DNA of 64,000 nucleotides, taken from NCBI RefSeq assembly GCF_932294415.1, contig NC_065544.1, positions 13,057,351 to 13,121,350 of the forward strand. Direction: 5' to 3'. This stretch comes from Quercus robur. Taxonomy: Eukaryota; Streptophyta; Magnoliopsida; Fagales; Fagaceae. This document shows positions 9,746 through 45,104 of the stretch, piece by piece. Positions within the stretch are counted from its first letter, which is position 1, and each line of letters opens with the position of its first letter. The notes beneath the pieces are model-generated. The model saw only the letters and a list, made by a program, of their open reading frames with translations. It did no database searches and was not told where the DNA came from. Position numbers and translations under genes: made by a program.

Positions 9746-9845
9746 TTTGCAATAGAATTTGTTTTACGTTTTTTGTGGGTGCCATCTTGGCAGGCATCCT
9801 CTGTTATAATTATTTATTATTATTATTTTTAATCTTGTGTTTTTA

Positions 9846-9849
<4 letters not shown>

Positions 9850-9876
<27 letters not shown>
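9850..9876. repeat. (TA)n microsatellite beside the LINE tail
   Basis: A run of about 13 TA dinucleotides directly abuts the T-run that represents the LINE poly(A) tail. Confidence 0.85.
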
Positions 9877-12200: not shown

Positions 12201-12924
12201 TTGTTATTGTTTGGTGAAACTACAACAATACTTTTTATATAAATCAGGTTTAATTTCTCATTTGCTTTACACCTGAAAGTTATTTTTTATTTTAATTTTT
12301 ATAAATATATTGTATGATTAGAAATGTCTACTAAAAAATATTCATATGGATATGAAACATTTTAAAAAAGAAAAAAAAAACTAATTGAGGCTCAAAAAGG
12401 ATCAATGGATAAATTTGTTATTAGTAATAAATAAAATATAACACAAAATTTAGATGAATAAATTTATTATTAGTAATAAACAAAATATAACACAAAATTT
12501 AGATGAAAATATCACAAATGAGCAAGAAATTCACAAAAAATAGATATTAAATGAAATATATTATAATATAAAAATATTAAATAAATATTAATTTAATTAA
12601 TACATAAGTATAAAAAAATAATCTAATTAACCAATAATTAATTGGGGGAAGCAACTAATAAACAATAATTAATAATTTAATTAACCAATACATTATAAAA
12701 GACAAACAAATTAAATTATGTTAGGCTAAACAATAATTAATAATTTTATAATTAATGAAACAACAATATAACAAATTATAGTTTATAAAAGACAAACAAA
12801 TTAATGAAACAACTAAACAACAATAATTAATGATTTTATTAATATTTCAAATGAACTTATAGTTTATTGTTTATTCTTTTACTAGAATTATGGACAAATA
12901 TTTGATAAGAAAACCACATAGAAG
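12201..12924. other. AT-rich interior of the hAT remnant, with a tandem repeat
   Basis: No gene is present. A 47-bp unit (aatttgttattagtaataaa, then an aaatataacacaaaatttag phrase) is present twice in tandem at about 12412-12505. Otherwise this is low-complexity A/T sequence. Confidence 0.5.
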
Positions 12925-13017
12925 ACAATTATAAACTTTATGTATTTGCGTGTTTTTTTATTGTTGTTGTCAATATACAAAATTTTCTTTTTATTAGATT
13001 GTGTAATTTATGCTTGT

Positions 13018-13228
13018 TGAGGAACACCCTGAAAAAAATTCCTGGAGTCGCCACTGTTGAAAAGCAGGCTACATTTGTATTTGGGTTCTTCACCAAAAAA
13101 AATTAAAAAAAAAAAAAAAAAAAATTGTATTTGGGTTAGTTGAGGAACACCCTGAAAAAAATTCCCGAAGCCGCCACTGTTGAAAAGCAAGCTACATTTG
13201 TATTTGGGTTCTTCACCCAAAAAAAAAA
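13018..13228. repeat. Tandem duplication of a hAT end plus flank, about 123 bp x 2
   Basis: The block gttgaggaacaccctgaaaa through tatttgggttcttcacc is present at about 13018-13098 and again at about 13139-13219. The spacing is about 122 bp, and A-rich spacers follow each copy. Both units include the hAT right terminus (gccactg) and the flanking ttgaaaagca, so the duplication postdates the insertion. Confidence 0.65.
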
Positions 13229-14574
13229 AATTATATTTGGGTTACTTGCATTCAATTTTTTTTTTTTTACCCGACATTGTATAATTCACATTGATAAATA
13301 AAAATAAATTGGCATCACTGAATCACTTCTTGTTTGAAGACAGTAAAATCATCATAGCTAGGTCTTAAGAAAGGTTGTCAATACACCTGTGTTTTTATCT
13401 AGATGTTAAAAATAATATCATTTAAAACAATGTCTTAAACAAAACATTGTATAATATTTAGTTCTACCTTTTATCTAAATGAAGGTTTGAATAGGATGTT
13501 TAGCACATCTAGAACATTCAGATTTTATGCATGTTGCAAAGAAATTATATGTAGTTTCGTTAAACCAACCCAAAAAATATTAAAATTCTCTCAATGGATA
13601 TCTTCTCTTTTTCTTAAAATTTTTACAAACCTATACCCATTTCACCAAAAAAATAAAATAAAATTGCAAACCTATAAGCAGCAGGTTGACGAATTGAAAT
13701 TGTTTAAAATTTGTAGATGTCTAACATTATTTTCTGAAATTATATTCATCATTTGTGTCATGCTATATAACATTAATTTGTTCCATATGATGTTGATGTT
13801 GTGAAAACTAGTTTGAGCTTCTTCTTTTTTTTTCAAGTGAACTTCAAGGAGAGAATCACACACTCTCAATAAGGCACCTTCACAAATATAAGTGACCATA
13901 AAAGTAGAATTGGGCCAAATTTAAGCAAAAATGAGAAAATGATTACAACTTTTTGTCACCCATTTTTTCACTTCTCCTTGCCATACAAAAGGATCTGCCA
14001 TCAAAGTTATAAATTGTTGTTCTAACTTATTTTGTCATATTGTCTTGGTTGAAGTGTTCTTTTAAGTCAAAAATATTAGCCATACCCAAGCATATCAATA
14101 GGCTTTGCACAATTCATAAATACAATAGTTCCATTTTGAGTAAAACACCCTGAAATCCAAATTAAATTCCAGTATTATGCATTTAGCATTCCTCTATTAA
14201 ATCTTTATGGTTAAACTTAGTAAATTTCACACCAAAAGAAAAGATCTTTGTAACTTTGGACATCTTGTTCTGAAAACCAATGAAGTTATCTCCACAAAAC
14301 ATATATATGCAGTTAACTTTTTGTATATTAATTTCAGAAACTACTTGAAAGAAAAAGCTAAAGGAGATGGTAGTGATTTCATCACAAGTTTTGGACAATC
14401 ACAGTTTGTGTAATATTATATATTATCTTCTTTTTTGTAATAATTTATGGTGCATACATTATGTTCAATTGTTCATACCAAAAAAAAAAAAGGGTAATGT
14501 GGAGTAGACATAGAGTAACTCAATCCTATGTTGTAATGGAATATTTGTACATTTGCTACAAATAGTTTGGGGTT
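13229..14574. other. Downstream flank of the receptor kinase; no gene
   Basis: Only short, compositionally biased ORFs occur on both strands and none has a recognisable domain. The last few hundred bases next to 14575 are the expected position of the receptor kinase 3' UTR. Confidence 0.45.
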
Positions 14575-15342
14575 TCAACGACCGTCAATTTTAGAAAGTG
14601 ATATTTCATTTACTAAATTAGATGTTGCACTCGTTGATCTGTTTGTACTATTGTAAGTACCCATCAAAATAAATGCAGGTCGTTTTGGAGAAGGAAGATG
14701 AGTGTCATTACCCAACATGAAAACAACAGTTGACATGGTTGGCCGGTCTGTTGCATGTTCTTGCATGCACAAAAGTCCAATTTGAATGCATCTTGAAACT
14801 TCATTAGCAGGGTATGCCTCATCTAGTAATGGGTCGACTATTTTCATGGAATTGTCTTCTCTCCATAGGTCCCAAACCTGAGACAAGATATTGATCATAT
14901 TAGACTCAACAATATAGGCTTAATTTTGTAGTCATTGTTTGCACGTGTACTTACATGTCCAATCAAATTTGAGGAAGGACCATCATGATGGTAAGTACTG
15001 TTCTTTTTACCAGTAACGATCTCTAGCAGCAATACCCCAAAGCTATATACATCAGACTTTATTGAAAATAGTCCTTGCATTGCATACTCAGGTGACATAT
15101 AACCACTGTCATAGCACAATAAAAAGGAAGATATTGAACCTCAATATAAAATGATCGAAGATAGCCCTTTGGGCGCTAACATACATGTAAAATTTGAAGT
15201 AACACAATATGAAAACGAATTATAGAGATATCCTTAATTTTTTTTTTCTTACAAATGCTTGTAGTTTGGACTCTCCTTAGATGTAAAAATGGTAGTCAAG
15301 TAATCGGTTAAAAAAGTATATCTTTGTTTTCTAGCATACTTA

Positions 15343-15606
<264 letters not shown>

Positions 15607-16589
15607 TTAGATTGCATTGCATTCGTGCTTTTTTACTTAGGTATAAAATCTTGCTACTTGGAACTGATATGTTTGTAATGGGAGGATCGTTTTCCAGTGA
15701 TGATGAGTGAGGTTAATATGAAAAAGAAGACATACCAAAAATGAAAGAGTCCAAGCTTTTATTTGGCAAGTACTCATAGATCAACATCTTCTCTTCTTTG
15801 TGAATGCAACAACCTAAAATTCTCACAAGGTTTCTATGTTGGAGTTTAGCAATTAGTGCAACTTCTGTTTTGAATTGTACTATTCCTTGTCCAGAGCATT
15901 TTGATAGTCTTTTTACTGCTATTTCCATTCCATTTTGTAGCAAACCCTGCAATTAAAGTCCAAATATCATTGTCATGGTGCACAATTGTTGAAAGAAACT
16001 CAACTTGGTGAATTATTTGGGGAAGCCCAATTGCACACCACAAATTCATACTCAATGAGTACCCGTAAACATTCATGATGGAATTTATGATGCATAAACA
16101 CACTTGAAATGAGACTACCTTATAAACTGGGCCAAAACCACCTTGGCCAAGCTTGTTAGCAATAGAGAAGTTATCGGTAGCTGCAATAATGGTTCTTAGA
16201 TCAAATAATGGAAAATTTGAATTTCTTCTAGTTCCATCAAGGTCCCTTCTACTCGGAGAGTCCTCGAAGTATGTTAAAGTGGACTCAGCACTATCTAAAT
16301 TTGTGCTATGCCTCATCCCTGTCATAAAACAAGTAATTAACAATGCTAGCAACCATTTTTGTCCAATTAGGAATTCTCACACAAAAGCCTAATTTAATAA
16401 AACTGAGAAACACACTAAAATAAAGAATGAAACAGAGGAAAATAAGAGGAAAAATTGAAGTTTACAATTTTCTATTTATCATTGTCAGGAAATCCCATTT
16501 GGTTAAAATGCACTTTTCTAAGAGGTAAGTGCTTATGGGAGGTGAAAGTTCCTCAGGCCTACTAATGGGGCTAGAGAAAATCTTAAAAT

Positions 16590-17430
16590 GTCAGGGAATT
16601 GGTTGGGCCATTCATGAAGCTTTTAGTTGAAAGGGTGAAAAAATTATCCATGTGGCATGATAATTGACATGCTAAAGGTGTTTTGATCCCCAACTTTGTC
16701 CAAAAGGTGGTGTATGATACTGCAATTTCTGAGTTTGCAGAAGTATCCAGTATTCTGAAAGAAATGCAGTAGCCTTGGAAACTTATCAGATCAAAAGATA
16801 CTACCCTACAAGCTAATTTTCATCAATTAAAATTAGCTAAGACAATTAGACAACTCAATGTACTGGATTTCATCTAAATACGGAAAAGTCACATGGAATT
16901 CAACTTGGAGTGAAATAAGAAACAAGATGGATATAGCTAAATGGTGGAAAGTGGTATGGTCTAAAGCAGCTACTTCTAAGCATTCCTTAATACTTTGTCT
17001 TTGGCTGGCAATGAAGGACGAATTGCAATTCAGAGTAGAATTAAATAAGAAACATGTATGTCTCAATGAATGGTAGAAACTGGAATGGTCTAAAGCTGCT
17101 TTTCCCAACAAGTCCTTCATATCTTGGTTGGCAGTGAAGGACAGGTTTCCCTCCCAAGAAAGGCTTGTAAAATGGGGTACAATGGTGCTCATGTATGTTT
17201 TCTGTAGAAGTCAAATGGAATTTTTGATCTTGTCATCTTCGAGTGTTCTTTCTTTTGAATTTAACATTTGTGTATGGTAGATATAAGAATGTGCAAATGG
17301 AATGAGCTAATGCATTTATTCGTAGGCTGAAAAGCAAGAAGTTTAAGAATAGCATTTGAAAAATTTCCTTGGCTGCTTCAGTATACCATCTTTGGATCCA
17401 AAGAAATGATTATGAGTATAATAACAAAAT
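16590..17430 (+). mobile_element. Degenerate LINE fragment inside kinase intron 2
   Basis: The plus strand, opposite to the host gene, carries pieces of a LINE RT-to-RNase H linker and zf-RVT domain across several frames. They read NFGQKVVYDTAISEF (about 16.69 kb), YWISSKYGKVTWNSTWSE, and AKWWKVVWSKAATSKHSL (16.93 kb). A second zf-RVT-like block, KAAFPNKSFISWLAVKDRF with ERLVKWG, lies at about 17.09-17.17 kb, and AASVYHLWIQRNDYEYN at about 17.37 kb. Many stops are present. The two zf-RVT-like blocks suggest an internal duplication. It has no role in the receptor gene beyond lengthening the intron between exons 2 and 3. Confidence 0.65.
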
Positions 17431-18734
17431 ATATCTAGTTCTTTTTCATTTTTTCTTTTATCAACTTCTACGCTTGAAAAATATATCAAGTTCCATTCCA
17501 TTTTATTCAGTTTTATTTCATGATTTACGTATTCTGCCTATTCTTTTATAAACTCTAAAACATAGCCTATTCTTTTATAAACTCTGAAACATAGTGTTGG
17601 AGTAATCTTGGGAGCATTTGTTCACTAGCCTTAGAAGTATAGAAATAGGTTTAAAAAAATTGCTCTAAATTTCCTTACCTTTCTTCTTCTTCATTACAAA
17701 ACAATACACAACTGAGACTATAAGAAGAAACATTATAGCAACAGAAACTCCCAGAATTGCCAGCATCCTCTTTTTTTGAGTCAGACCATTTTTCTTAGCA
17801 TATTGAGCTGAGTAAAAAAAAAAAAAAATTATTCAAATGACATCATAATTTTAGAAGTTGATTGAACATAAATATTTATTGATGCAGTTTTGCAAGAAAA
17901 TGAGAGTAGGGATGGAACAAGGGTTTAAGGAGAATATGTGATTTTATTTTTTATTTTTTTAAAGGAGAAAATGCAATTCTCATTTTGAGGTCCAACTTAT
18001 CAAAAGAACAAAACAAAAAAACAAACATGTTCTCACAACAATGTCAAGTCCATATGTGATTCTCTTTTTTGAGGTCGAAAACATGTTAAAAGAAGAAACA
18101 AAAAAAACAAATATTGCAAACCTATTTTTGTAACAACAATGTCCAATGCCAAGAGAGTGTTTCTTATTAATATAAGTAGAATCACAGTTCAATTTCTCTC
18201 TCTCCCATTATTATAATAACTATATAAAAATAAAATGAAACAAGTATTGCATAGTAGGACCTACTACGAGTGATGAATATAATTGTAGAAATCTTGTGTT
18301 ATAAGGGTATACAACTCTTAAATAATTTTGACTTCTCCACACATCGTTTGAGTTTTGAATTAGTATGAAATAGATAAAAGGTATAATTGTGAAAATTTTG
18401 ATATTTTTAGATAATTTAACAAAACCATATATAAATTCTTTCCCATATGGAATGTAATACTCGTTTAGATTTGTAATATATAATTTGAAATATGAAATAG
18501 ATCAATTTTAAATAGAGAAAATCATTTTTCAATAATGTGACCTAAATCAACTTTAAGGTTAGTACCATAGGGCAAATTAGATGTTGAACTAGTATTCTGT
18601 ATAAATTTCAGACTAATATAATACAATAGACTTGAACTTTGACTAACACTCTATTTGTTTTGAAGTAAAACAAATAAAATTTTAAGGTGTTTTGTATGAC
18701 CAATAAAAATTTTCAAGCAAACAACTAAAATCAG

Positions 18735-19030
18735 TAGTTGAGTCACCAGAACCGCTAGTGTAGGAGGTCTAGTAACCTGACTATTGGAATTTTAGCTTGA
18801 ACGATGTCTCCAACAACCAGACAGGGGCCAACTACCGCTAGGGTGATGTCTCCGGCCACCAGAATGGTGGTTTCGGTAATCAAACCTTTAGCACGCAGCT
18901 TTAGTGACCGGATTACCAGTATTTGTTGCCAGAGTGATGGCTCTAGCCACCAGAACGTTGGCACTAATTGTTAGAGTGGTGGCTCTAACCACTGGACTAC
19001 CAACATCATTTGCCTAGCTCATCGAACCGA
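18735..19030. repeat. Imperfect GC-richer repeats in kinase intron 1
   Basis: Loose repeats of about 35-45 nt carry the phrases gccaccagaatggtgg, gtgatgtctccggccacc, agtgatggctctagccacca and gagtggtggctctaaccact. They stand out from AT-rich intron sequence. Reading frames through it are short and I see no protein family. It is probably a decayed minisatellite. Confidence 0.4.
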
Positions 19031-20616
19031 TGACCTAACCACCAAATGGGGTGAGGGAACTCACTGTGTATTTTTGTAAAATGTTTTATCAAAATTTTAA
19101 GATGAAAAAGTACCTAATACAACCGGATCCACACGTATGTATAAATCTTGTCCTGCTTCAGGATATGTTCTTGCGTCCACCAAGTCCCCTTGCCATGTCA
19201 AGCAACCAATCCCTCCCTCACTCTCATTTGCACTTGCGTAAGCCATACAAGAACAATTCCTCAAACACTTTTGCTCACACTCTTTCATACTCAAACTCAT
19301 GTCCGCATGTGCTATTGAAGTATCTGGCACCTTCATATGTGCCAACTTCACGAACCCTTCTCCGTTATTGCATATGGACACTCCTTGCTTTTCCCTCATG
19401 CAATCATGAGATGACTTGGGTTCAAATCCGGGAAAGCACTTGCACTCAAAAATGACAAAATTGTGTGGGTCACAATAACTATTTGGACCACAATTCAAAT
19501 ACTTATCGCACAACTCTCGTGGGGCAGACCAATATTCGACCCATGTAGTCTCCTGCCATAAAGACCGTCGCATAATTCCTGATTCATCCAACACCATTTT
19601 AACAGTAACTTTGGGGTCAACTGAATTTGAAAATATATTGTACATAATGGTGGTTTCATCTTGATTATTCACAAAGCTAACATTGAAGTAATTTGATATC
19701 ATTTCGGGAATACCGCTCCATCTTAGGCCAGTCCAAGATCCAGCACGCCATAATAGAGTCCGACCCATGTATAAGCATGCCTGAGGATACCCAATTGGAA
19801 CCATTTGATATGAGTAGTCGCCAATTTCTGGGTCATCTTTGGACTTCCAAGATGTTAGGAACCGGTTCAACCCAGTTCACCGGTCTAGCCCAAGTTTCAT
19901 GAGCGGAAGCAGAGTATTGGTGGGATAATCAAAACTTTGCCATGTAAAACGTTGGCTGTCTTGTTGAACCAAAACAAGATTTCCTATATCTAAGAGCTTA
20001 GCCATAGAATTATTTGTGGATGAGACAGAAAAAGAAACATTGGTGGACCAAATAGGAGTGGTTTGATTTTGGGTGTGGAGTACAAGGTTTCCCTTACCAT
20101 TGATGGAGAGGACTCCAAAGGCATCATTGAGAGGAGTGTCTCTGTTTGCAACCCACACAACGGTTTGTTCAGTGATTTGGTTATACCAAATTCCAACATA
20201 ACGGTGACTGGAACTGCCAAGGCTTAAAAACCCAAGCGCAAAGGTTTTTTGGTTTGAGAGTAGAAGTTGACCGTCACCATCCTTAAGGGGTTGGTTTGGT
20301 GTTATGGAGTCAAGGGAAGTGCAGATTGGGCAAACAAGAAGAAGGGAGAGAAGAAGCAATGATGTATTCCCTTTAGCAGGATTCATGGGATTTCTAATGA
20401 AGAGTACAGTAATACGACTTGTGGCTGATGGGCTAGGATAGACTATAGAAAGCTTGATAGCCATATAAAAAAAATAGTTGTTCTTCTTTTATAAATAAAG
20501 TTAAATGAGTTATTCGACGTATGCAAGGTGTCGTCCAGTTATCAAGGACCCACACACTCAAATCATGTTTACCTTGAAAACCCGTTCACATTAGTGAAAG
20601 ATGAGTCATGCGATGG

Positions 20617-20767
20617 TGACATAAAAAATGCATAATTTTGTGCTACAACTTGTGGCAAGTTGTAAGTAGTGGAAGTTTATCTCCATATAACCCACAATCA
20701 TACATTTACTAATCACAACTCGCCACATGGCAAATTGTGGCACAAAATTGTGCATTTTTATGTGTCA
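20617..20767. mobile_element. Foldback MITE, about 150 bp
   Basis: The left arm tgacataaaaaatgcataat, then tttgtgctacaacttg, is matched in inverse by the right arm ending gcacaaaattgtgcattttt then atgtgtca. The arms are roughly 45 nt with a few mismatches and an AT-rich loop. It lies just upstream of the receptor kinase start. The target duplication is not clear. Confidence 0.65.
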
Positions 20768-20854
20768 ATAGTATTACTCAATGAAAGATACTTGACAAAA
20801 CTTTGGTCTTCTTTGGCAACTTTAATTTAAGTCTAGGTCACAATTTTTGACCAG

Positions 20855-20871
20855 GGCCGGCACCACCTTAA

Positions 20872-20908
<37 letters not shown>

Positions 20909-21205
20909 AAAATTTTTTATTTGTGTAGCCTTCAAAAAAAATTTGAGAATACCTTCAATTTTTTTTTATGCCAATAAAATTAAATTTTACTTCATAATTT
21001 GTTATATATTCCGTGGATCAAGGATTGTTTTGTTGTGTACACTGAAAGATATGTAGTTTATAGCATTGATAATGAGACTATTATGCACCGATTTCAAAGT
21101 ATAAAAACTCGTAGAAGGAAATTGTAAACTTTATGTATCTGCGTGTTTTTTTATTGTTGTTGTTGTCAATATATGAATTTCTCTTTTTATTAGATTGTAT
21201 AATTT
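20855..21205 (+). mobile_element. hAT remnant with transposase C-terminal tail
   Basis: The left end reads cagggccggcaccacc, a hAT-like terminus. A (TA)n run (20876-20904) follows. At 21035-21127 an open stretch reads VYTERYVVYSIDNETIMHRF then QSIKTRRRKL and stops. This matches the end of the dimerisation domain of ZMYM1/TTF-type plant hAT transposases (..I.N..I...F...K.R...L). Everything upstream of this tail is missing. The post-stop phrase ctttatgtatctgcgtgttt is shared with 12.93 kb, tying both to one family. Confidence 0.6.
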
Positions 21206-21859
21206 GAACGAAAATGCACTTTTAATCCTTACATTTTGAACAAATTCTCATTTTGGTCCTAAAATTGATTTTGCTACTAATGCAGTTCCTAAAAAAAGAA
21301 AATCGATTTTATTTTAGTCCATGTCATCAACCCACTAACAGAAATCTCCTACGAGGCAAAAATAGTGTCCTGCTGGCTGACATGGTGTTGACGTGACCAT
21401 TAAAATATTATTTAAAAAAAATTCTTTGGCAATTTGTTAATGCCTCGTCTGATTTAAATTAATAAAACATTAAAAAAAGGTTAGATTAGAAAATTAAAAA
21501 AAATTAAAAATAAACATTAATATAATTATATTTTATTTTATTTTATACTTTTTTTTTTCCGTAAGAACATTTCTTCTTTTCCTAAACATGAACTTCATGT
21601 TCTTCCCCGGCAAACAAACCATAGCAAACCCAAAAATTTTCTTAAGAAACAAACACACAAAAAAAACCCCCAAAAATTCAGCTCAAAAACAAAATCATAA
21701 ATCTCAAATCCACCATTTTTTCAAACACCAGCAAAATCATCAAATCCCAAAGCCCCAAAGTACCAAATTAATCCAAAAATACAACATAACCAACCCAAAA
21801 AAAAAAAAAAAAAATCTCAAACCCAGAAAAACCCATCTCGGGCAAGTTAAACCTAGAAA

Positions 21860-22105
21860 ATCTAGCAATCCCACCTCAGAACCCAGAAAGTCGAACCAAG
21901 AAATCCACCTTAGAACCCAGCAAACCTACCTCAGAACCGAGCAAATCCCACCAAGTCGAACCAAGAAATCCACCTCAGAGCAAACCCACCAAGTAGAACC
22001 CAGCAATCCAACAAGTCGAACCAGGAAACCCACCTCAAAACCCACCAAGTCAAGCCCAACAATCCAGCAAGTTGAACCAGGAAACCCACCTCAGGGTTTT
22101 CCACA
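21860..22105. repeat. Minisatellite of about 30-nt units in MULE cargo
   Basis: Imperfect repeats of agaaatccacctcagaaccc and its variants (cccacctcaraacc, gtcgaaccaagaa, cagcaa..cccaccaagt) run from about 21860 to 22105. They translate into low-complexity Pro/Ser/Thr/Glu-rich strings in all frames, so the long ORF through here is not evidence of a protein. The position, just 5' of the ATG3 start, suggests an expanded 5' UTR. Confidence 0.6.
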
Positions 22106-22124
22106 AAGAGAGAGCAAGAGAGAG

Positions 22125-22279
22125 ATGGATCTGATGCAGAAGCTTCATAAAGTGTTAACGGTGGAGAGAATCACAGGTCCTCGCATCGTCTCTGCCTTCA
22201 AAGAGAAAGGCATTCTTAGCGTCTCCGAGTTCGTTATCGCCGGTGATAACCACGTCTCCAAATGCCCTACCTGGTCCTG
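22125..22279 (+). pseudogene. ATG3: ATG3 (autophagy E2) first-exon fragment captured by MULE
   Basis: From ATG at 22125 the frame reads MDLMQKLHKVLTVERITGPR, then VSAFKEKGILSVSEF, then GDNHVSKCPTWSW. This is the N-terminus of plant ATG3, the E2-like enzyme that transfers ATG8 to phosphatidylethanolamine. Compared with the family the helix after KLH is about three residues shorter (KVL in place of EAFKG/S). The exon ends in a proper donor (tcctg|gtacta at 22279/22280). The sequence then becomes intron-like, and no further ATG3 exon (ubiquitin-like fold, catalytic Cys) is seen. It is a 5' fragment, including 5' UTR-like sequence and part of intron 1, between MULE arms. It could at most make a truncated peptide or antisense/siRNA against the parent. 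Confidence 0.75.
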
Positions 22280-22441
22280 GTACTACATCATCTTCCCGTT
22301 CCAAAAACCTAATCAAAATTTTCCAATTTCCAAAATCCATACCTCAATTTTACCTTTTTATACAATACCCAGCAAATCCACCGAGAGAGAGAGAGAGAGC
22401 TTCAATATTTTTGGGTGAACAGAGAGCTTCAATCTTTAATT

Positions 22442-22483
<42 letters not shown>

Positions 22484-22587
22484 CCGGAACTTTTGAAACT
22501 TCCACAAATTTTCACGTCAGCACGATATTAAAAATAATAATAATAATAAAATAATAAAAATAATAAAATTTTTTTAAAACCCTACCC

Positions 22588-22821
22588 GATGCTCTGCGTT
22601 CTCTCACTGTTTTATTTTTCTTTTTATTTTAGGCTCCAGAGAGACCGAATACTTTCTTCTTTGCCGTTCTCTCTGCTTCTCTCAATTCTCGGAATCCCCA
22701 ACCCGATGCTCTGCGTTCTCTCACTATTTTATTTTTCTTTTTATTTTAGGCTCCAGAGAGACCGAATACTCTTTCTTCTTTGCTGTTCTCTCTGCTTCTC
22801 TCAATTCTCAGAATCCCTAAA
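22588..22821. repeat. Tandem duplication, 117-bp unit x 2
   Basis: gatgctctgcgttctctcac through the end of unit (ggaatcccc) is repeated at 22588 and 22705 with a few substitutions and a small indel. It follows the Helitron 5' end and looks like duplicated 5' UTR sequence. The ORF across it (repeating MLCVLSLFYFSFYF) is a by-product. Confidence 0.75.
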
Positions 22822-22933
22822 CCATAGCCCATGGTCACTCTCTCACTCCTTCAGTGGCAAAAAGTGCCAGCCTCCGGTCGCCACCGTCATATATCGCCAA
22901 AGCCACTACCAGTGCAGGTATTTTATGATTTAA

Positions 22934-25121
22934 TTTTTGCTATCTTAGATTTAGGTACTTGGATTTGGTTTGATTTTCTTTAATTTAGGTATTTGGATAA
23001 TTGGTTTTGATTAAGGTTGAACCTGTGCAAAATTGAAGATATCTGCTTCTTCTTCAACTCTCTCTCAGCCTCCATCTTTTCCCTGAAAAACACAAAACAT
23101 GAACTGACCTCTGACCTCTAGGTTATTGGCGTTAAATTTTTTTTAAAAAATTAAATATGAATTATTGAAGCTTGGCTTAGACTATATGGGAGTGAAACAC
23201 AAGAAAATGATGGGAAAGTTAAGAAGATTCTGCCGTGCGAGCCTTTTCAAAGGCAATTTTGACTTTGTTGGTGTCATGGTGGGTTAACCCCTGAAAATCT
23301 GTCTTTATTAATCTTAATTTTCTTAATTTGTTTTTTTTTGTTTTGTTTTTTTTTTTTTTTTGGTTAGTAAATGAATTATGAATGAATATTGGCCTCAGTG
23401 TTGTATCAATATGCCTCTCTTATATTTTAGGTTTGATTTGTTCAAGTTTAGTTGAAGCTGCTAACTCTGTTGGTTGACCAAATTTGTTGATTTAATGATT
23501 TTAGCATCATCTTCTTAAATCGTTTTCTAGGGAGGGTTTATTACTTTTATTTTATTAGTTATTGAAGAAGACCTTTGTTCATGTTAGGCACACATTCACG
23601 CAATGTTTGAACCAATCTTAGATGCCTAAACCGTTCTTTCCTTTTTTTGGGGTTTACAATAAATGGATTATAGGAATTCAAACCTAAAGTCTTTCTAGAG
23701 AGAAAATTGAATAACACCATTTACTTATCATTGGAGAGTATGTTGTTCCTGTGATACAACCTCATAATTACAAATAGCTACTTTTCATCTGTAAGGGCAG
23801 GAAGAGAAGATGTGGAAATTTATGGTGCTTTGGTCAGCCAAAACTAAGTTATTGGTGAAGGATCTGTCAATTGCATGCCACAAAACCTGCATAAGTTTGC
23901 ATACTCCTAATTTGGCTTTCAATATTGGTCATTGTCCCTAGCAGAAGATACAGCAAGACTTCTTTTGCATCTCTCACGCCCACATGAACCACATTGTGAG
24001 TGTCCTTTCTGTGTTTTTCTTACTTTCTCTTTGTTTATATTGCTCTTGGTATTGGAAATTTTTTGTATACTTCATTGTGTGTGTGATAAATTACAGTGGT
24101 TAGATGTTAAATACTTAGTAACTATTTATACATTTGTATTTTGTTTAAAGTTGTACTACAAGTTGAAGATTTTGGTTGGTGACTATGTTATTTGCTCCCC
24201 AAAGCATTTGTAAAAATGCCTAAACCAAACTTTCCATCACTTAGGAAGTACAAGGAAAAAAAATCTAATAGAAAACTTTCCATCCTTACTGAAAGTTATT
24301 TTGAATCTTAACTTCAATGTGAAGGGTTCACTGAATTTTTTCAGATAAGCTTTCACTTTGAGGAAAATATTTCCTATTAATATAGCAGTCCTACACTCCT
24401 ATTGTTTAGTGCTCTGCTTATGGGGATATTTAGATTTGCTTAGGAATTTTGATTCATGGGAACTGTTTTTGTTAAGGTGGTGCTGTCTTTGTTAGAAAAA
24501 GAGGAAAAGGAAGTTTATAAGAAGCCTAAATCTGAGATAAAGAAAGGGAATTTCTTTCCCCATTGTTACTTCCCAGAAATGCCAAAAATAATTGTTTCAC
24601 TTGAACTTGGGACCTATATGGCTTGAATTGTTTAAGAACTTTGTATGTCTGGAGTAATTTAGTAATAATTTTCATTTTTTAATCCTACTTAGTTTCTGAA
24701 GATATTTTTTTCATCTATTCTTTGTTTGCCGATATCTATTTCTTTCAAATGGTAAATGTTTTAGTGACTCTACTTCTTTACACTATCAATGTTAAAGTTG
24801 TTCTCTATATATGAGTGAAAAGGCTCCACATGTGAGGCTGTACTAACACTTGCATATATATAGTTTGAATGGGGCTCTCTTGATTTTCCTTATCTTATTG
24901 ATGTAATTGAAATATTTAACTTTCTCATCATTGATGCAAAATTTCATAGTCTTCTCTTTGGTTATATTAGTCCTAACTTTGTATTGCTTTGTTTTGTTTA
25001 TTTTTTTTAAAAATCATTTATTTGTTTCTTTTGTTACAATTTTATATAGTGTTGAGGTTAAGGTGTATATGACCATATCTACATTACAGCTAATTTCACA
25101 TCATGTTTTCTTGGCTTACAG
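22934..25121. other. Helitron interior, exon-like bits not identified
   Basis: Intron-like T-rich sequence. A segment at about 23800-23990 has a frame reading EDVEIYGALVSQN then EGSVNCMPQNLHKFAY, with one stop and one frame change. It looks like captured coding sequence but I cannot name it. Nothing else is recognisable. Confidence 0.3.
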
Positions 25122-25213
25122 AGGGCTGAGACCTTGGGAATTGCTGAATTCCCAATACTAGGCTGCATCAGGAATATCCAAGTTGGGGTTAAAGATACAA
25201 TCTTTTCATCAAG
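25122..25213 (+). other. Exon-like segment of unknown origin
   Basis: A good acceptor (ggcttacag) and donor (AAG|GTAAAC) bracket 92 nt. One frame is fully open and reads RAETLGIAEFPILGCIRN then QVGVKDTIFSS. It sits inside the Helitron and is probably another captured exon. No family is recognised. Confidence 0.35.
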
Positions 25214-26629
25214 GTAAACATATTACACATGTTTGTATTATTTTATTGTGAACAAAATAAATTAAGAACTTATTATTGTCACTATCTAGAATAATTTGTG
25301 CATCATGTATCATAAAGAGCTTAATTGTGATCATAAATAAAACTGTCTTTTAAATATATATTGGAAGACTCCTAGAATAACCTACCGTAGATGGGTGGAA
25401 TCTCATTAAAAATCTTGAGGTGAATGGGATGTATGGTCCACCATGGTTAATAAATAGATTTTAACAGGCACATGAATCAGTAATGAAATTGGTCTGTCCA
25501 GTTCACACTGATTTGTTACTGTGATGATTTCCTTGAAACTTCAATATTAATGAAATGGTAGTGAAGTGATTTGTGTTGTTGCCTTCCATTTCTTTGTGTA
25601 TTGGCAGAATACACACACACACATTACACTTCAATCAATAACTTCCATGGGAACGTCCTGTAACTTCTGTTTATGTAAGAAATATGAAGTTGAAATCAAA
25701 AGCTGCTTTTAAGCAATAAATGAGTAATCCATCCAATGCTAGGTAACAATAAGAAATAAAGAATTGAAGGAAAATTCAAGTCTAAAACAATATAGCTAAT
25801 CAAAATCGTAGAAACCCCATAAGAGATTATCCTAAAGAAAACAAAATAATTTTCTCTCAAAGACTATTTCTTTGGCTACTGATTTTATGGCTACTAAATT
25901 GGATATGTCACTTGATGATCTTATTAAAAATAGAGGTTCCCGTGAGAGAGTTAGATAAGTAACAGCTATTTGATTTAGTTTTATAGATTTTTGTAGATTA
26001 GGTATTTTGTTGTATATTTGCTTCTCATAGTGCTTATTAAAAGTGGCTGTATTGGATATTGCATGATGGTGGTAATATTTTTTAGAGACTTTTAATTATT
26101 GATTTTGTCCTTTTCAATGTTGGGCTTTTCTGGGTTTTACATGTAATGCTATTCTTAAAATTTTAGTTGATAATCTGTTTGAGTGATGAGGGGAGAAAAT
26201 CAAACGTCTTGATTTGAATTATATGGAGTAGTAAGTATGGTTAAGCTATATATAGGTAAATCATTCCAAATTTTTGCAGCATTCCCTGTTTTAATGTTTT
26301 GAAGATAAAATGTTAAGGATAGTCTTTTTAAAAAAAAAAAAAACCATGCAGAGGGTTGTAATTTACTGCTTCAATTTTTTAATCACATTTATGATGAGTA
26401 TTTCTAATCATGGCTTTTGATTGAAATTTAATGGCCAAAATTGCACCATATTTGTCACAAATAAAAAGATATATGTGGCAACTAACAATGGCAAAATTGC
26501 TAATTGATGTGCATCATAAAATGTTGAATTTTGGTTAAAAGGCTGATATCAACCTAATTTTTAGCATCTTTCACAATTTTACGTGAATACATGTAAATTT
26601 GTTCAAAAGTTAATTTTTATGCCTTACAG
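25214..26629. other. Helitron interior, non-coding
   Basis: AT-rich, intron-like, with a short (CA)n run at about 25610-25625. No coding is recognised. Confidence 0.4.
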
Positions 26630-26707
26630 GGTTTTGAGGAGTATATAAATTTAATTCTAGATGATGCTGGAAAAGTCAACATCAAGAGGAAGAGCAAAAA
26701 ACTTTAG
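26630..26707 (+). pseudogene. SmE (snRNP core) exon fragment captured by Helitron
   Basis: After a strong acceptor (gccttacag) the frame reads GFEEYINLILDDAG then KVNIKRKSKKL and TAG at 26705-26707. This is the Sm2-region exon of small nuclear ribonucleoprotein E (family pattern GF.EYMNLVLDDA..V..K.K). SmE is a core ring subunit of the spliceosomal U snRNPs. The conserved continuation that should follow the KK(S)RKP stretch (LGRILLKGDN-type) is lost after a frame-breaking change, and the upstream Sm1 exons are absent. It lies about 380 nt from the Helitron 3' end, so it is cargo rather than a gene. Confidence 0.7.
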
Positions 26708-27060
26708 ATGGGTTCATTTTCCTTTACTTTTAATCTCTCAAATGTACATGCTTTGAACATGGTACATCTATTTTGTTATAGATACATCTTGGACATCAAG
26801 AATGATTAATATAATTTATGAAAGATATTTGGTTGAATGAGTATGAAAACTATATTTGTGTAATTAATTGTATTGGATAGTACTTATATCAGTTATATAT
26901 TTTTTAAATATGATTTCAAGCTCTTGGTTATCACGATTTCTCAGTGCATGTGATAAATTTTATTATCATGCAAGTGATAGATTTTATTGGTTTGGTATAT
27001 AAATTACATCATGATATTGATTTTTTTTTTTTTCATATTAGGGAAGTTATCAATAGCTTT

Positions 27061-27089
27061 CTCGTGTATCGCACGGGTTAGCGACTAGT
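27061..27089 (+). mobile_element. Helitron 3' terminus (hairpin + CTAG|T)
   Basis: ctcgtg-tatc-gcacggg hairpin, a 7-nt spacer, CTAG, then T. It has the same geometry as the 8.08 kb terminus. Confidence 0.7.
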
Positions 27090-27499
27090 TAAAACTAAAA
27101 TTGAGGAATTAAAATTTTTTTGAATTTTCTAATCTGGCCTTTTTTTATTGTTTTATTAATTTAAATCTCACGTGGCATTTAAAAAATGTCAAATAAATTT
27201 TTTTAATAATATTTTAATTATCATGTAAGCGTTATGTCAGTCATCAGGCACTCCATCAGTCACATAAGAAATTTCTTCTAGCGGATTGACGGTAAAGATT
27301 AAAATAAAATTGTTTTTCTTTTTTAGAGACTACATTAGTAGCAAAATCAATTTAAGAAACAAAATGAGAATTGGTCCAAAACGTATGGACTAAAATGTAT
27401 TTTTGCCTATAATTTATACTTTTAAAGAACATCAAGACCTAGATTCTAAGCTCAATGAAATCTAGATTCAAACCATCAAATTTTGTCTTGTTTGGCTAA

Positions 27500-28211
27500 G
27501 AGCATTCACATCAGCTCGTTTAAAAGATTCCGTCTATTTTATACCAAAAACCTACTTTTTCTATTTTACACTATCACTTTTACAAAACACCCACATCAGT
27601 TCATCTATTCTATCACCCCACTTATTTAAATAATCAATTTACTTAATTATTTTATTATTTCTCTCACCTCACCGGTTTTAATACGCGCTCTCTCTCCCTC
27701 TCCCTCATATTTTCTGATTTCACTCTCTCTCTTCTATCTCTCCATCCCTCATATTTTCTGATTTCTCTCAAATCCCTCATATTTTCTCCATACCCGGTCT
27801 CTCCTTCTCGGTCTATCTCTGTCTCATCTCTCTCCCTCTTGGTCACAAACCAATCCACATCATCACAGCTCCGATCACAGCTCTGATCACCGATCCACAG
27901 CTCCGATCACCGATCCACAGCTCCGATCACAAGCATCGATCCACAGCAGCACCGATCCATAGCTCCGAGCTCCGATCAAGACCCATACCCACGAGCTCCG
28001 ACCAAGCGAGACCCACGAGCTCCGATCGTGAAGATAAGCACCGATCTGTCTCTTTTTTGTTTTTCCGTTTGGGTTTTTTTTTTTTTTTTTTTTAGCAAGT
28101 ATATCTCTGTGTTGGTTTAAGCACCGATCTGTCTCTTTTTTGTTTTTCCGTTTGGGTTTGTTTGTTTTTCCGTTTGGGTTTTTTTTTTTTTTTTTTTTAG
28201 CACCGATCTGT

Positions 28212-28249
<38 letters not shown>

Positions 28250-28526
28250 CCGTTTGGGTTTGTTTGTTTTTCCGTTGAGGTCGTTGTGCACGGAGAAGAG
28301 AGAGAAAAATTGGTGCGAATGGAAATTAATAAAAAACTAAATACACATGCTACAGTGCCCGTGTAAATTTACACGGGTACTGTAGCTCGTGGAAAATTTT
28401 AGAAGATTATGCATGATTTTAGCTGGACTGATGTAGTGTGTTTTTTGCTTCAAAATGTGTAAAAACGGTCAAAATGTGTATTTTACACATTTATACACAA
28501 TTATACAAGAGCTGATGTGAATGCTC
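27500..28526. mobile_element. PIF/Harbinger-type non-autonomous element, 1,027 bp
   Basis: The left terminus GAGCATTCACATCAGCTC (27500) is matched in inverse by GAGCTGATGTGAATGCTC ending at 28526. TAA flanks both sides (27497-27499 and 28527-28529), a 3-bp TSD typical of the superfamily. The interior holds CT-rich sequence, imperfect repeats of gctccgatcaccgatccaca (27870-28030), and three units of a gcaccgatctgtctctttt / ccgtttgggt module with long T-runs (28038-28255). No transposase is present. The ORFs here are low-complexity artefacts. Confidence 0.72.
28349..28386. repeat. 38-bp near-perfect palindrome
   Basis: gctacagtgcccgtgtaaa is followed by its inverse, with one mismatched pair (g/t). 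It sits inside the Harbinger-type element about 140 nt from its right end and would form a strong cruciform or RNA hairpin. Confidence 0.85.
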
Positions 28527-29104
28527 TAACAATGCAAAACATTAAACAAAAAGGTGGGGCCAGCTACCTTCGGACCTAGCTCACCAAATCATTTCTTTCC
28601 AAAGCTAGAAGAAGACTATGGTGAAAACGGATAGGTAAGTCAAAATGACTTAATTGTCCTTGCACACCAAGATATATATTTTTTTTTTCTCATCTATTAC
28701 CTCCCCCTTACAAGTGGCCACCAACTATCATTTTTGTCCGATTCCAAAAACTTTTCAAAAAATTCATACAAATTACATTTTTCATTCTCTTGTTTTATTT
28801 TTTAGCAAGAAGGAGGAAATTTTTGTATTTATTTTTCATCATTTTAATTTTCCATCATCCAACCAAACACACATGACGATAAACTAAAGTATTTTCTATT
28901 CTTCTACTTTTTCATCTTTTCAATCAAAGAGAGCCTTAATAGTTTTGTATTTTAGTGATATGGTTGGATTCATTCTTTATAGAGAACATGGATTCCCACT
29001 CTTTAAAGTGAAAAAAAGATTAAAAATTGAAAATATTCATAATACAAAGATTAAAACTCAATTGAATAGCTCATTTTACTTGTACAAATGAATGCTTCAC
29101 ACAG
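28527..29104. other. Non-coding, nothing recognised
   Basis: AT-rich sequence. The plus-strand ORF at 28654-28887 is T/F/S-rich and has no domain. Confidence 0.35.
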
Positions 29105-29228
29105 AAGGATCAAACCAGGTAGATGACACAAAGAATGTTGGACATGGAGGAGGCCATTAAGGAGGAGGGAGGAGGGAGCAGGGAGCAGTGGCAAGGGTGG
29201 AGGTGACAAAGGTCATGGTGGAAACTAA
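29105..29228 (+). pseudogene. Glycine-rich protein exon remnant
   Basis: After an acceptor (tcacacag) the frame reads EGSNQVDDTKNVGHGGGH and stops at TAA. A +1-type shift then gives SGKGGGDKGHGGN and TAA at 29226-29228. Both halves look like the Gly/His-rich C-terminal exon of small secreted GRP proteins (VDD.K then G-rich). The stop and frame change mean it is broken. Low-complexity sequence makes the call weak. Confidence 0.3.
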
Positions 29229-29749
29229 AGCCCAACTCTAGAACTCGAGCTCAAATATATGTTTGGCTTTTGTAATGTAATAGAATTAATAAATATGCAT
29301 GCAAAATTTCGGGCAACCAGATTTCGATGCTAAGTGTGTGATGCTTTTGAAATGCTTGAGATTTTGTTTTTGTGAATTGTCTATGTGAGTGCATCCTTTA
29401 TCATTTTATCGTTTTTAAGAAGTCTCCACCTACCATTGGTTTTCTAAGGAGTGATTAGTCACATATATCTATGGACTAAGGTTTTCTCAACTAAACTAAT
29501 AACTTTTATACTTGGATTAGCTAGTGGACCATCTTACATGGGCTTTTAGAATGTGACTTAAGGTGGGACCAAAGAAAAAATAAAAACACTAAGGTGGGAC
29601 CAAAGAAAAAATAAAAACACTATCTCAAATGGGCCTTGAATCTCCTTGTAACTAATGACTAACCCAAAGTTACAATTAATCATAATTTATTTTACTAAAA
29701 ATTTATGGTTGCAATCTAGGTTGTTATTAAATCAAAGATTTATACCAAG
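29229..29749. other. Non-coding flank of the segmental duplication
   Basis: No gene. A short tandem repeat (aaggtgggaccaaagaaaaaa, two copies at about 29551-29610) is present. Confidence 0.4.
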
Positions 29750-29759
29750 ACTCTATTAT

Positions 29760-32106
29760 ATTCACATTTTCCCCCTCCATAAAATCATTTATAGTGAAAC
29801 AAAAAAAGTCTACAGTTTAATCTTTTGATTATTCTTACATTTATGAAATTTATATTTAGAAACTCTTAATTAAAGTGGTCGGACCCAACACACTAAATAA
29901 CCAATTCTCATTAAACCTATCTCAATGGAATGTTTTGTGTCTCTAAAAACAAATTATGGATTCCATCTTGAGAATATGTGTTCTTAGAACACTGTGTAAT
30001 TGCCTAACATCTAATGTTTTGACCATGCAAGATCTCACTCCGGTATACATCAAAGCAAGCAAAATTCATGTTTGAATTCATCATCCACTCAAAATTGAGA
30101 GTCTATGCAAATAGTAGTCATGATATATATATTTGTTCACATGGCCATATTAATAGAACAATAAATCTCATAGTGGTCTAGTTTAATGTATCCCACACAA
30201 TTTAAAAACACCAACATATCAGTTAATCATAATTCTCCACTTTCATGATTAAGACAAATCCTCATAATTTATATGCTTTAGTTTTTGCAGATGAAATGCC
30301 TAATTTCATCACCAACTTCGAACATAGGTTAATAAGTTTATGAGAAACTTATGATTTAGATCTTCTATATGCAGATTTCATTATCATACCTAGATCACAT
30401 ACAATGCATCTCAAAGATTAGAATATATAAAATTCAAATATTCATGCAAAAAACAATCTCAGAAAATAAAACAACTTTTATTATTAAAAAATAATGCTAC
30501 TCAATTGAGTTTTAAGGCACTACTCCTAATAGTGATTATCTCAATATGATGATGTTTCTATGTTTGGTTAACAAATTTATCAATTAAGGAAGTAATTGAG
30601 AATATTCTTTCAAATATAATAAAATGGAGGAAAAGAATACATGTGACTGGCCTTGTTCCTAATTATATGCTGAGGATCCATAGTTAACTCCAAAAATTTG
30701 GAATTAAGGCTTGTTGTTGTATGATAGAGGCTTGGTGAATGTGTCAATCGGGTCAAAATCATGTACAAGTTGAAAATAGGTCTGACTAAAATAAGTTGCT
30801 ATTTGAGGCCTTCTCATAGGTATATATTTATAGAACAACCACACCCTTTCAGTAACAAGTATGTCTGAATATGTGACCCCCCATATCAAATTTGGATATT
30901 GTCCAAATGTGTGTTGTGTGGGTGTGTGATGAGTCCTATATTGGGCATTTACTTGGTAGATTTGAGCTTTATTAACAACTACAAAAATCCTCAATTTTGA
31001 CTAGTCCCTTCGAGGTATAATGCATATAGGTAGTAAGCAAAGACCCACCCAACCCAAAGGGTTAGTTGGATGTTTGGGCTGGGTTCAGTTCCAACGAGTG
31101 GGTCTTATTCAGATTTCAAGTCAGTATCACGTTAAACCCGACCCACTTGATCTAATTTTTTTTCTTTTTTAAATACTAGTTAACAAATTGTTGGGCTTGA
31201 ATAATTTTAGGGGTGTAATTTGCAAATTTAGGAATGTAATTTGCAAACACCCTAAACTTTAGGGTGTAATTTGTCATTTACCCTAATTTTAAATAGAAAG
31301 AATACAAAGTCCAAAACAACCCCCTCCCACACAAAAACACACACCCAAAAATAAAAATAAATAAATAAAAGAGGAAGAGTCCCACAATCTAACCTGAGAC
31401 TCAACTGACCCGCCCATCAAATCGAACTTTTGGGCCAATTAAAAAGTACAGGTCTGAGTTTTATCAGGTTGAGGTGTAGGTTGGGCCTGAAACCGACCAG
31501 TACTTAGCCCTAAACACAAATACGGCAAACACTTTTCTTTGAATCGTTACATAATATTTTGATACTTATAAACCACTCAGAATCCATTTTGTTTGTTGAA
31601 TTGTTATGCTTGTGTTTTAAATACCATCTTTGTATTCTTATGTTATAAGTATCTTTCTCTAATTCTGGTTCATCCTGATTGTTAGGAATCCAAATGTGAT
31701 GTACTGAAGGTTATCATGTATTGCAATGTATGTTAGGAATTCTGATGTGTTTGTTTAGTTAGTGAGATAAGCTGAAGCTGATGTCAGTTAGTTATGCTGA
31801 TGTCAGAGTTTCAATTAGTTAGTTAGTACTCTTTAGGCAGGAAATTTTAAGAGTTGGGGAGGGAGAACTGTATATAAGAGGACTAAGAATGAAGGATATC
31901 CAGAAAATTAACCAAGCTTGTTCTTTCTATTCTTCTCAAGTTCTCCCTATTGCTCAGGAGGTGGTTACCCTCGAAGTAACTCTCATTTTCATCCTTCTTT
32001 TCATCCATTTCTGAATTGCAAAGAACTTAACACTGATCTTCATCTTCTAGATCATGGATTAGTTATTGAATCGTTGTTGATGATATCATGACTGCTCTAC
32101 TGTACA
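29760..32106. other. 3' flank of AAH copy A, no gene
   Basis: Shared with 51.58-53.98 kb. It contains a compositionally unusual block (31.03-31.5 kb) rich in gggttgggc / cccgaccca-type phrases that pair imperfectly in inverse, probably an old foldback element. On the minus strand a TATAAATA motif lies near 30.83 kb with CT-rich sequence after it, which may be LTR-derived. The 96-codon minus ORF at 30704-30994 is broken by a TAA in the other copy and is not treated as a gene. Confidence 0.4.
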
Positions 32107-35100
32107 TTAATGACAAAAAATGTTCAAACTATACAATTGGGTCTCCAGAAACGCCAAGATTGCCAAACCAGCAGCACAAACATCTTTGTCCAATACATGC
32201 TCTGCAGGGGAATGACTTAAGCCTCCACGACACTGGACAAACAGCATTCCAACCTGTTCAAGTTTTTGCAGATTATAATCATTTAACATGAAATATCACC
32301 TCCTAAAAGTCGATGATGAAGCAAAACAGGACAAACCTTTGTTAAATGAGACATGGCCATTGCATCATGTCCTGCACCACTCATTAAGGCAGGTGTTTCG
32401 TCTTGAATGTCACTGGTCATTTTCCTGAGTGCAGAGTAAGCCGCAGACTTCAGCTGAGAACTCAATTCAGAATCACAAACCACTGCATTCGCATCATGCT
32501 GAAATGTCCACAGCAAACCAGGTTATTGATTATGAGGGTTACAAAAGAAATGCATAATGAGATGAAGTCCCAGACCTTACAATTGATGATACATGAAACA
32601 GAGCGCCTCTCACATATTTTATACATCTGATTAGATAATTCATAGATAACAGCTTCACGTCCCATGTCATCAATTGCTCGTAAATCCACAGTGAATGTCA
32701 CCTTTTTCCAATAAGTCCATTGTGAATTCAGACATAATCAATAAACAACAAGGTATCCCAATTTGGGCATTGTAATCAAGATCAGCATAGTCATAGATAA
32801 AATTTCTTACCTGGCCTGGAATGACATTGCTTGCACTTGGCCATGTTGATATCTCTCCAACAGTACAGACTAGAGAACTGGAAAGTGATTCCAGTGATAT
32901 ATCATTGCAATGATCATCATAAGATAGAAAATCTTTAGGGTTTTTACAGGCACTTTCCAACAGTGCTATTAATTCAGCAGCAGCAACCATAGGATCCTGA
33001 CGCATAGACATAGGAACAGTTCCAGCATGCCCCTGTGAACCACTCACTGTAACCTGCAATTATATATGTGGAACAAAAACATCAACAACCAAAGATCATA
33101 TCAATTCTGATATAAGATCAGCATGTGCATATTATCATTGATTTACATTTATCTTTACATGCTCCAGGCAGAAATGTGTAGAGTTGAAAATTCCATACAA
33201 AAATTAACTTTAGCCTATCCTAGGTGTTTTGTTAAAATTCCAAAAACAAGACACTATGCTTCCTCTTCATTGTTTTCTTTATATCTCAATTTGTTTAACA
33301 AACTACCGTTTGTAGTTTCGTGTATTTAAAATATAGACCTTACAAGACCAAGTTCTGGTATAAAATCCTGAGCTGGTAAAGAAAGTTTCCATCTGGCACT
33401 CCAATTCTTACATGAGCTTGGCGAAACTCATACTCAAAATAATAAAGGCACAGTAAAAGCCTCACCAAAATCAAATCTGTCTGTTGTAAAGAATTGGAAC
33501 ACTGGTGCCGTACAACTGCAGGAAAGTTCTGAATAACAATAACTATTGGTATACTCCTTCACGATTGTTATATGGGCTGTACTCAAGAAAATTCACTAAA
33601 TATTGCCAAAAGGATGGAGAAACAGAACCAAATATCACAAGAAGGTGATAGGGAAGAAAGAGGATCACTATGAGTTTATATATTAACCCAAAAAAAGGTT
33701 TTGATTTGGCATGGAATAGGACTGATATGGGAGCTAGAATGATTATAGAATAAAATTCACTTAGCTCAGACTCATATGCAAGTCATCGACATGCACACTT
33801 AAATTTGTACAATCATACAACATTTTCTCCGTTCCATTTTATTGATCTTATCTAGAAAATACAACTTTTTTATGGGAATATCATTTAATGTATTGTCTTC
33901 TGATAAAAAGGTATAAATTTCCAAAACTATGCTACATAATTTAAACTCAAATAAAGCTAATGGAAAAAAGGGTATTGACTTTTGAATAAATGCAAGGGCA
34001 AGTTGTTTCTATTGACATATCAATGTAGACAATATTTTGAGACATCCCAAAATGGACTTGAAACCAATAAAATGGGATGATGGTAGTATATATGACAATC
34101 TTTTAGCAAGATTTAAAACTTTACAAACACTGAAAAGAAAATAAGCATAACAAAGGTAAGGAACTTATATAATAATGTAATACAAAGGAGAACACAGGAA
34201 AAAAAAAAACCAGATAGGAGAATTGCAAACATTTTAGATGGCAATATCATGCAAAATACAAGTAAACCTCTTTTCCTGTAAAAAAATAAAAAAATAAACA
34301 CCGGAAGAATTTTATATACCTTTAGTCTTGTCTGGCCAGCTATGCCTTTAACCACACCAAGAGGAAAACCAAGCCATTCTAGTGCTGGACCCTGTTCAAT
34401 GTGAACCTGCAGCATCAACCCAATACAAGAACTGAATATGCACACCCAGAATACTAGAAGCTAAAATAACATAATTTATTGCTGAATACGAAGAGGATAT
34501 TCAATACATCCTGGTTCACAAGATAACTGGTGTAGACTGTTATACCTCAATGTAACCCCAGACAGACCCTGGGTCATACTTGAGCTGTAACAAGTTTTCC
34601 TCTGTAATTTCTAGGGGGTTTTCCTTCAGAGCATCTTGCACTGTCACGCCACTAAAAAAGGATTATGCATGAATAAACTGATAATAACAGAATCATGAGT
34701 AGATATAAGCTCAAAGTTATTCAAGAAAACCTCTTGTCAGATATCTGCAAGGCTGTAAGTGGTAAAACACCAGCTAAAGCAGCACTGCCCAAGAAAGTAG
34801 GGTGAAACCTCACTCCCTCCTCATCACTAAATGCAATCACCTGCAATAGTAGGAAATTCATTGACATCTATAATCAGAATTGTTGCATAGCCACCACCTC
34901 CAACATATAACAAATCTAAATTTACAGCTGAATCAGATTGCAGTGCTGTAAAAACAATTCAGGACAAGATTGAGTCTACATCAATTAAAGCTCTAGATGG
35001 AGAATAGAGTCAAAAATAAGAACTGATGTATTCAAGAGATCAGGTCTCACATATATGTTTCAGAGTCTCAAAATATATTTCCTTTGTATTTCATCCATGT

Positions 35101-37638: not shown

Positions 37639-38098
37639 CTGCTTATGCAGGCAACAACATTAACATTCACAAATAACCACACAGCACAAGTTACATATTG
37701 AGTAAAGTAAAGCCAAGGAAAATTCAATGCAGCCTTTTTCTATAACATATTGCAGTGGCCAGACTCTAGGGGTGATTACCATTTGAATGGTGGTTATAGA
37801 AACATTGAAAGTTGAGCATTTTAATCTTGGGGGCAGGAGATACATGCGATGGTGTGATACGACTATGTTTGATTGCAGACATATATAACATATTTGTTCT
37901 AATTTATGCAAAATCATAGCTGTTTGAGGGTAAGGCAGCAAAATTTTAAGAGGATTTAAAAAAAAAAAAGTCAACATGTTGCTGCAAAAATTGGATTCCT
38001 GTATTCCTTTCAGCATGTAACAGAAATTCAACTCGTATATCATTGAAGAAGTACATCGTCAATAAATAATAATAATAATAATATCATACATCTTATTT
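34633..38098. repeat. Tandem duplication of AAH exons 3-6, about 1.75-kb unit
   Basis: Unit 1 is 34633-36383 and unit 2 is 36384 to about 38098. The junction at about 36381-36389 joins intron-2 sequence (aataataacatacatctt) to the inside of exon 7 (gcatcttgca-type). The shared catctt is a 6-nt microhomology, as in unequal or end-joining duplication. The units are near-identical in introns too. Unit 2 carries its own degenerative changes. Confidence 0.85.
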
Positions 38099-44950: not shown

Positions 44951-45104
44951 TTCTTCTTTCGGATGAGAGAAAACGCTGAAAGACAGAGAAGAAAGCTGAA
45001 GGCAATGATGAAATGCGGGAGAAGGAAGATTAAAGTTGATATGAACTCAGGAAGGAATACAATGCTTGCCTTCACCACGGCACCGCTGCTCCATAATTTA
45101 TGGT

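Follow-up and report, generated by a model that had tools for sequence, protein, structure and literature searches.

How did pieces of two host genes, ATG3 and SmE, come to lie close together on the same strand of an oak chromosome? The locus is part of a 64,000-nucleotide stretch of Quercus robur DNA, which we call the window (C40:13057351-13121350); the genome searched comprises 786 Mb in 42 contigs. An initial annotation had proposed that the two pieces were brought together by stacked transposons, a Helitron with an SmE exon nested inside a MULE with an ATG3 fragment. That nesting is borne out by Helitron siblings that share both ends and by two empty sites.

The outer element is defined in the window by four features.
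21198..21206, no strand: left target-site duplication of the MULE, TATAATTTG
21207..27407, plus strand: Pack-MULE, 1563 bp without the Helitron, with copies L037 and L038
22086..22366, plus strand: captured ATG3 piece, with 39 bp of 5'UTR, exon 1 at 22125-22279 and about 87 bp of intron 1
27408..27416, no strand: right target-site duplication of the MULE, TATAATTTA
The TIRs of this element are long, with 21211-21505 pairing with 27113-27403 over 295 bp at 79% identity. A 9-bp target duplication is characteristic of MULEs; here the two 9-bp flanks agree at eight of nine positions, an imperfect duplication, and the L037 copy is flanked by TATAATTTA and TACAATTTA. We also considered 12910-13009, which matches the left flank, as an empty site of the MULE and rejected it, because the match ends at the insertion point and does not continue into the right flank.

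The cargo of the MULE has its parent elsewhere in the genome: 22086-22366 is 83% identical to an ATG3 gene on C4 (L039), and exon 22125-22279 matches ATG3 in the PDB (best E 1e-12). The exon 1 donor, a GT at 22280, is identical to that of the parent over GTACT. Homology crosses the border between exon and intron, which points to capture of DNA rather than mRNA. Searching the genome with 21880-22430 yielded 10 matches, namely four MULE rows, two ATG3 genes (on C4 and C2) and four short matches; the MULE rows are the window itself, one at C40:12.94 Mb (97%) and two at C1:14.26 Mb (90% and 98%). Pack-MULEs with long TIRs and a captured gene fragment are described for rice and other plants (PMC8903248, PMC13317346). 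The window MULE resembles them in its TIRs and its captured fragment, shares the 9-bp target duplication usual for MULEs, and differs from them in its ATG3 cargo and in its later interruption by a Helitron.

The inner element and two of its internal features can be placed as follows.
22451..27088, plus strand: non-autonomous Helitron of 4638 bp between A22450 and T27089, delimited by empty sites, siblings and ends
22580..22823, plus strand: tandem duplication inside the Helitron, with a unit of about 125 bp and 94% identity, found likewise in several siblings
27061..27088, plus strand: Helitron 3' end, hairpin CTCGTG-TATCG-CACGGG, then TTAGCGACTAG
These limits agree within one base with the interval 22450..27089 proposed at the outset. 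The 3' end, expected about 20 nt inside the right arm of the MULE, lies 24 nt from the inner edge of the aligned right TIR. A CTRR terminus preceded by a GC-rich hairpin is characteristic of Helitrons; here the terminus, CTCGTGTATCGCACGGGTTAGCGACTAG, ends in CTAG, and a hairpin with a 6-bp stem stands just upstream. Taken by itself, the fold of this hairpin is modest evidence for a Helitron (z of -1.78, with 9 of 200 shuffles equally good), and the genomic evidence is stronger. No open frame overlapping 22451-27088 is longer than 131 aa, and there is no RepHel gene, which is expected in autonomous members only; we therefore class the element as non-autonomous.

The 5' end was only partly as anticipated. 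A 5' end of the family does follow the ATG3 piece, and its TC is present in seven of eight siblings, but the window copy itself terminates in TATATA, starting TATATATA within an AT run. Because the window copy is only 1.2-3.3% diverged from its siblings over its length, we take the missing TC as decay. Helitron ends running from TC to CTAG, a 3' hairpin and insertion at an A/T target are described in the literature (PMC6591975). Compared with the gene-fragment-carrying Helitrons of maize and other plants, the window family is alike in its ends (with TC in the siblings), its hairpin, its A/T insertion, its host gene fragments with introns and its many copies; it differs in its cargo, which is part of SmE and a probable ALYREF-like exon.

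Other Helitron-like ends occur in the window. Within 48130-50031, a related 5' end (TCTATATA...AAAACCGAAG), 74% identical to 22458-22604, is followed by exon-like pieces, one of which resembles IQM proteins and had no Pfam match. The best hits of a window scan included no close 3' end for this element. A second Helitron-like 3' end lies at 8053-8080 (CCCGCGC-ATT-GCGCGGG, then TTAAATGCTAG, then T). The stretch 9825-9876 was rejected as a further 5' end, its match being mostly AT repeat. A 20-base piece of the Helitron 3' end had no match in a viral contig collection.

To define the family, we searched the genome with window 26600-27089 and scored 40 of 193 candidates, so that copy number is a lower bound. 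At least 66 matches were found. Besides the window itself, 39 cover the last 310 bp, 25 fall on the SmE stretch and one more is a partial 3' match. Of the 39, one stops at query position 460, 30 bp short of the end. Among the 25 SmE-stretch matches listed, one is 33 bp only, and each of the other 24 is some 185-245 bp away from a member of the 39; the SmE stretch thus stands upstream of the Helitron 3' end in 24 of the 39 further 3' matches listed. CTAGT closes 17 of the 20 loci that we fetched (the exceptions are L015, L020 and L025).

Siblings with both ends, which the initial annotation had called for, were recovered as eight near-full-length copies among the 20 fetched loci (L009-L013 and L016-L018), and their 5' ends were read directly. 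L012 lacks 165 bp of the element, and L018 lacks 79 and 27 bp. Divergence is 1.2-3.3% from the window copy and 0.6-3.5% among the siblings themselves, gaps excluded. All eight end in CTAG followed by T; seven begin with TCTATATA, and L018 begins with TATATATA like the window copy. We located the 5' ends by seeking TCTATATA within 90 bases, so the independent observation is the base that precedes it, which is A in seven of eight and C in L017, where it falls in a CT repeat. The remaining twelve fetched loci (L014, L015 and L019-L028) are rearranged, more diverged or matching near the ends only. At one of them, L021 (C4:51.70 Mb), about 5.4 kb of other DNA lies between the SmE part and the 3' end. 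The place on C4 that also gave an SmE match (L045 with L046) has a 3' end similar to that of the family and looks like an old, decayed member. Across the genome, PF14214 (Helitron_like_N) has 126 matches, including several open frames of more than 1000 aa, the longest exceeding 1400 aa; no match falls within any of the 20 fetched loci, and no autonomous element was tied to these ends.

Empty sites had been suggested as a check on the insertion, and two Helitron-free copies of the MULE, L037 and L038, supply them. In both copies the sequence runs GTTTGTTTTTAATTAAAACT through the site, whereas the window has 4638 bp separating the AA from the TT of that sequence. The Helitron therefore sits between A and T without a target duplication. 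Immediately left of the insertion, the window lacks 25 bp relative to L037 or 27 bp relative to L038, so that on this side the empty sites do not match it base for base.

The surroundings of the two copies bear on the order of events. L037 (C40:12.94 Mb) belongs to a paralogous segment. Its identity to the window is 96.3% for 12194-22440, over 10,370 columns, and about 93.5% for 28527-29800, in a comparison that covered window 8001-29800 against C40:12932000-12949900. Right of the MULE, L037 has about 4.2 kb of different DNA. The query included both flanks, yet the long alignments of L038, on C1, are confined to the MULE, the other matches being one of 36 bp and a low-complexity one of 55 bp; we therefore take it as a separate insertion. 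Since the MULE in the duplicate segment has no Helitron, the Helitron most likely arrived after the segmental duplication, and precise loss from two separate copies is less likely. Identity between the window and L037 is 98.4% in the middle of the MULE and 91.9% in the left flank, compared with 83.2% in the left arm and 85.8% in the right arm; the arms (21207-21505 and 27089-27407) are 83-86% identical in all three pairs of the window, L037 and L038. Such low values could stem from faster decay of the arms or from their exchange with those of other MULEs.

Viewed as a whole, window 12194-29800 and C40:12.932-12.949 Mb, some 137 kb apart, form a segmental duplication with 93-96% identity. Within it, 27500-28526 is an element of 1027 bp whose inverted ends read GAGCATTCACATCAGCTC and which is flanked on each side by TAA; we take it to be PIF/Harbinger-like; the sequence near 6970 of L037 resembles its empty site.

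The Helitron brings cargo of its own, for which three features were recorded.
25122..25214, plus strand: candidate captured exon, an open frame with AG before and GT after
25887..25955, plus strand: probable ALYREF/THO4-like N-terminal exon, MATKLDMSLDDLIKNRGSRERVR then a stop
26490..26815, plus strand, limits approximate: captured SmE 3'-half part, comprising an intron, exon 26630-26707, an intron and a 3' remnant
An SmE exon with an intact acceptor had been predicted about 380 nt from the 3' end. It is there, at 381 nt and with the acceptor ACAG, but it is not a lone exon; it is what remains of a larger capture. The exon matches SmE in the PDB (best E 4e-5) and LSM in Pfam at E 0.022, under the curated cut-off, and is present in 15 of the 20 fetched loci. 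SmE loci were found elsewhere in the genome (L043 and L044), with two exons matched at each of those on C37 and C2 and a third SmE match on C4. Aligned with the C37 and C2 genes, the siblings show an intron followed by exon GFDEY...SLG and a further intron, after which come a decayed piece, a CT-rich stretch and the gene end; the decayed piece, read by eye, occupies the expected place of SmE exon GRILLKGDNITL. About 200 bp of this capture is missing from the window copy at 26778/26779. The piece was captured as DNA: in the siblings, intron and exon of SmE are accompanied by decayed remains of its later parts.

The ALYREF-like stretch, which the initial annotation does not list, is a probable second captured gene of the Helitron. 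Four of its five PDB hits are the N-termini of REF2/THO4 (ALYREF), at E 0.039 to 0.13, matches that are suggestive and not proof; its Pfam match, DUF1409 at E 0.084, is below the cut-off, and a homologous stretch occurs in 12 of the 20 fetched loci. The candidate exon at 25122-25214 had no match in Pfam or the PDB. Ten conceptual pieces in all were compared with Pfam. Seven, ATG3 among them, had no match, and besides LSM there were weak, below-cut-off matches for two, the ALYREF-like piece being one.

Taken together, these data leave us with little doubt that a Helitron moving as a member of an SmE-carrying family inserted into an ATG3-bearing Pack-MULE, most likely after the segmental duplication. 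One could instead suppose a single Pack-MULE with a long composite cargo, captured from a stretch of chromosome that already held the Helitron. The Helitron does lie wholly between the TIRs and does lack its 5' TC in the window copy; yet it reaches both ends of its family, is 1.2% diverged from a sibling elsewhere, and is absent from two MULE copies that carry this ATG3 cargo and show the site with both its edges. Survival of this account demands that both copies lost the Helitron precisely, and we regard it as extremely unlikely. The chance that the SmE exon marks a resident pseudogene, with no transposon involved, is negligible. Remnants of an intron and later exon beside the exon in siblings might suggest one, but the same block stands upstream of the same Helitron end in at least 24 other places, and tblastn of the window with a plant SmE sequence turned up no other convincing SmE exon (the next best hit had E 0.65). 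Flanking SmE exons had been named as grounds for refuting the nested reading; the later SmE remnants lie inside the Helitron, so no resident SmE gene is indicated here, and two-exon SmE loci are on C37 and C2.

A further alternative concerns function and holds that ATG3 exon 1 is spliced to Helitron exons to give a functional chimeric product. The ATG3 donor matches its parent over GTACT, the SmE acceptor of the window copy is intact, and chimeric spliced transcripts from maize Helitrons are reported (PMC4528327). A chimeric RNA is possible. A direct splice would nevertheless run out of frame (...CPTWSW VLRSI stop) and end after five new residues, and a fused ATG3-SmE protein would therefore not be possible by that route; a splice to 25122 would stop immediately. 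The ATG3 homology begins 39 bp upstream of the ATG, so the piece may have come without the ATG3 promoter. Furthermore, the SmE donor is AT instead of GT in 15 of 16 copies, the window included (GT is found only in L025), and a frame-shifting difference of one base is common to 15 of 16, L014 being the exception. Variable sites in the 16 copies fall on the three codon positions alike (8, 5 and 9 of 23 each) and total 22 of 69 in the exon versus 39 of 102 in the flanks; there is thus no clear sign of selection on a protein, and the copies may have decayed neutrally since capture. We find the idea of a chimeric gene weak overall and very unlikely to be correct. It is similarly improbable that the SmE Helitrons, present in dozens of copies, act back on their parent gene through transcripts or small RNAs that alter SmE dosage, or that the nested pair yields a short ATG3 N-terminal peptide competing in autophagy. 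Both gene pieces look decayed rather than parts of a useful new gene.

Insertion of the Helitron into an existing Pack-MULE can accordingly be set out as a sequence of events. A Pack-MULE that had taken the start of a host ATG3 gene would have inserted into this chromosome and then been copied along in the segmental duplication. Later a Helitron, with the SmE 3'-half part and probably the ALYREF-like exon already aboard, would have inserted between A and T inside the right arm. Rolling-circle transfer is the model for Helitron movement, and this one presumably moves by that usual route; the 3' hairpin would serve as its stop signal, and autonomous relatives would supply RepHel in trans. The two empty sites and eight siblings suggest this order, from MULE capture through segmental duplication to Helitron insertion, and make the locus a clear and relatively datable case of stacked gene pieces. 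At this locus the ATG3- and SmE-like exons belong to the cargo of transposons, and annotators should not count them as genes.

The kind of event and its mechanism are already known, and it is the two empty sites that make this example unusually clear. In a 22-Mb region of maize, elements are nested in each other, and the published account lists MULEs as well as Helitrons that carry gene fragments (PMC2773423). The window is alike in having one element inserted into another; it differs from that region in that both nested partners carry gene fragments and in that their order rests on two empty sites.

Further repeats and genes lie elsewhere in the window. A 6.7-kb direct duplication, 93% identical, links 29749-36387 with 51570-58270, and there is in addition an inner tandem copy (34632-36387 / 36382-38094). 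A long open NB-ARC/LRR resistance-like gene occupies 41399-45046 on the minus strand, and other window genes include pieces with S-locus glycoprotein and B-lectin domains and a reverse transcriptase.
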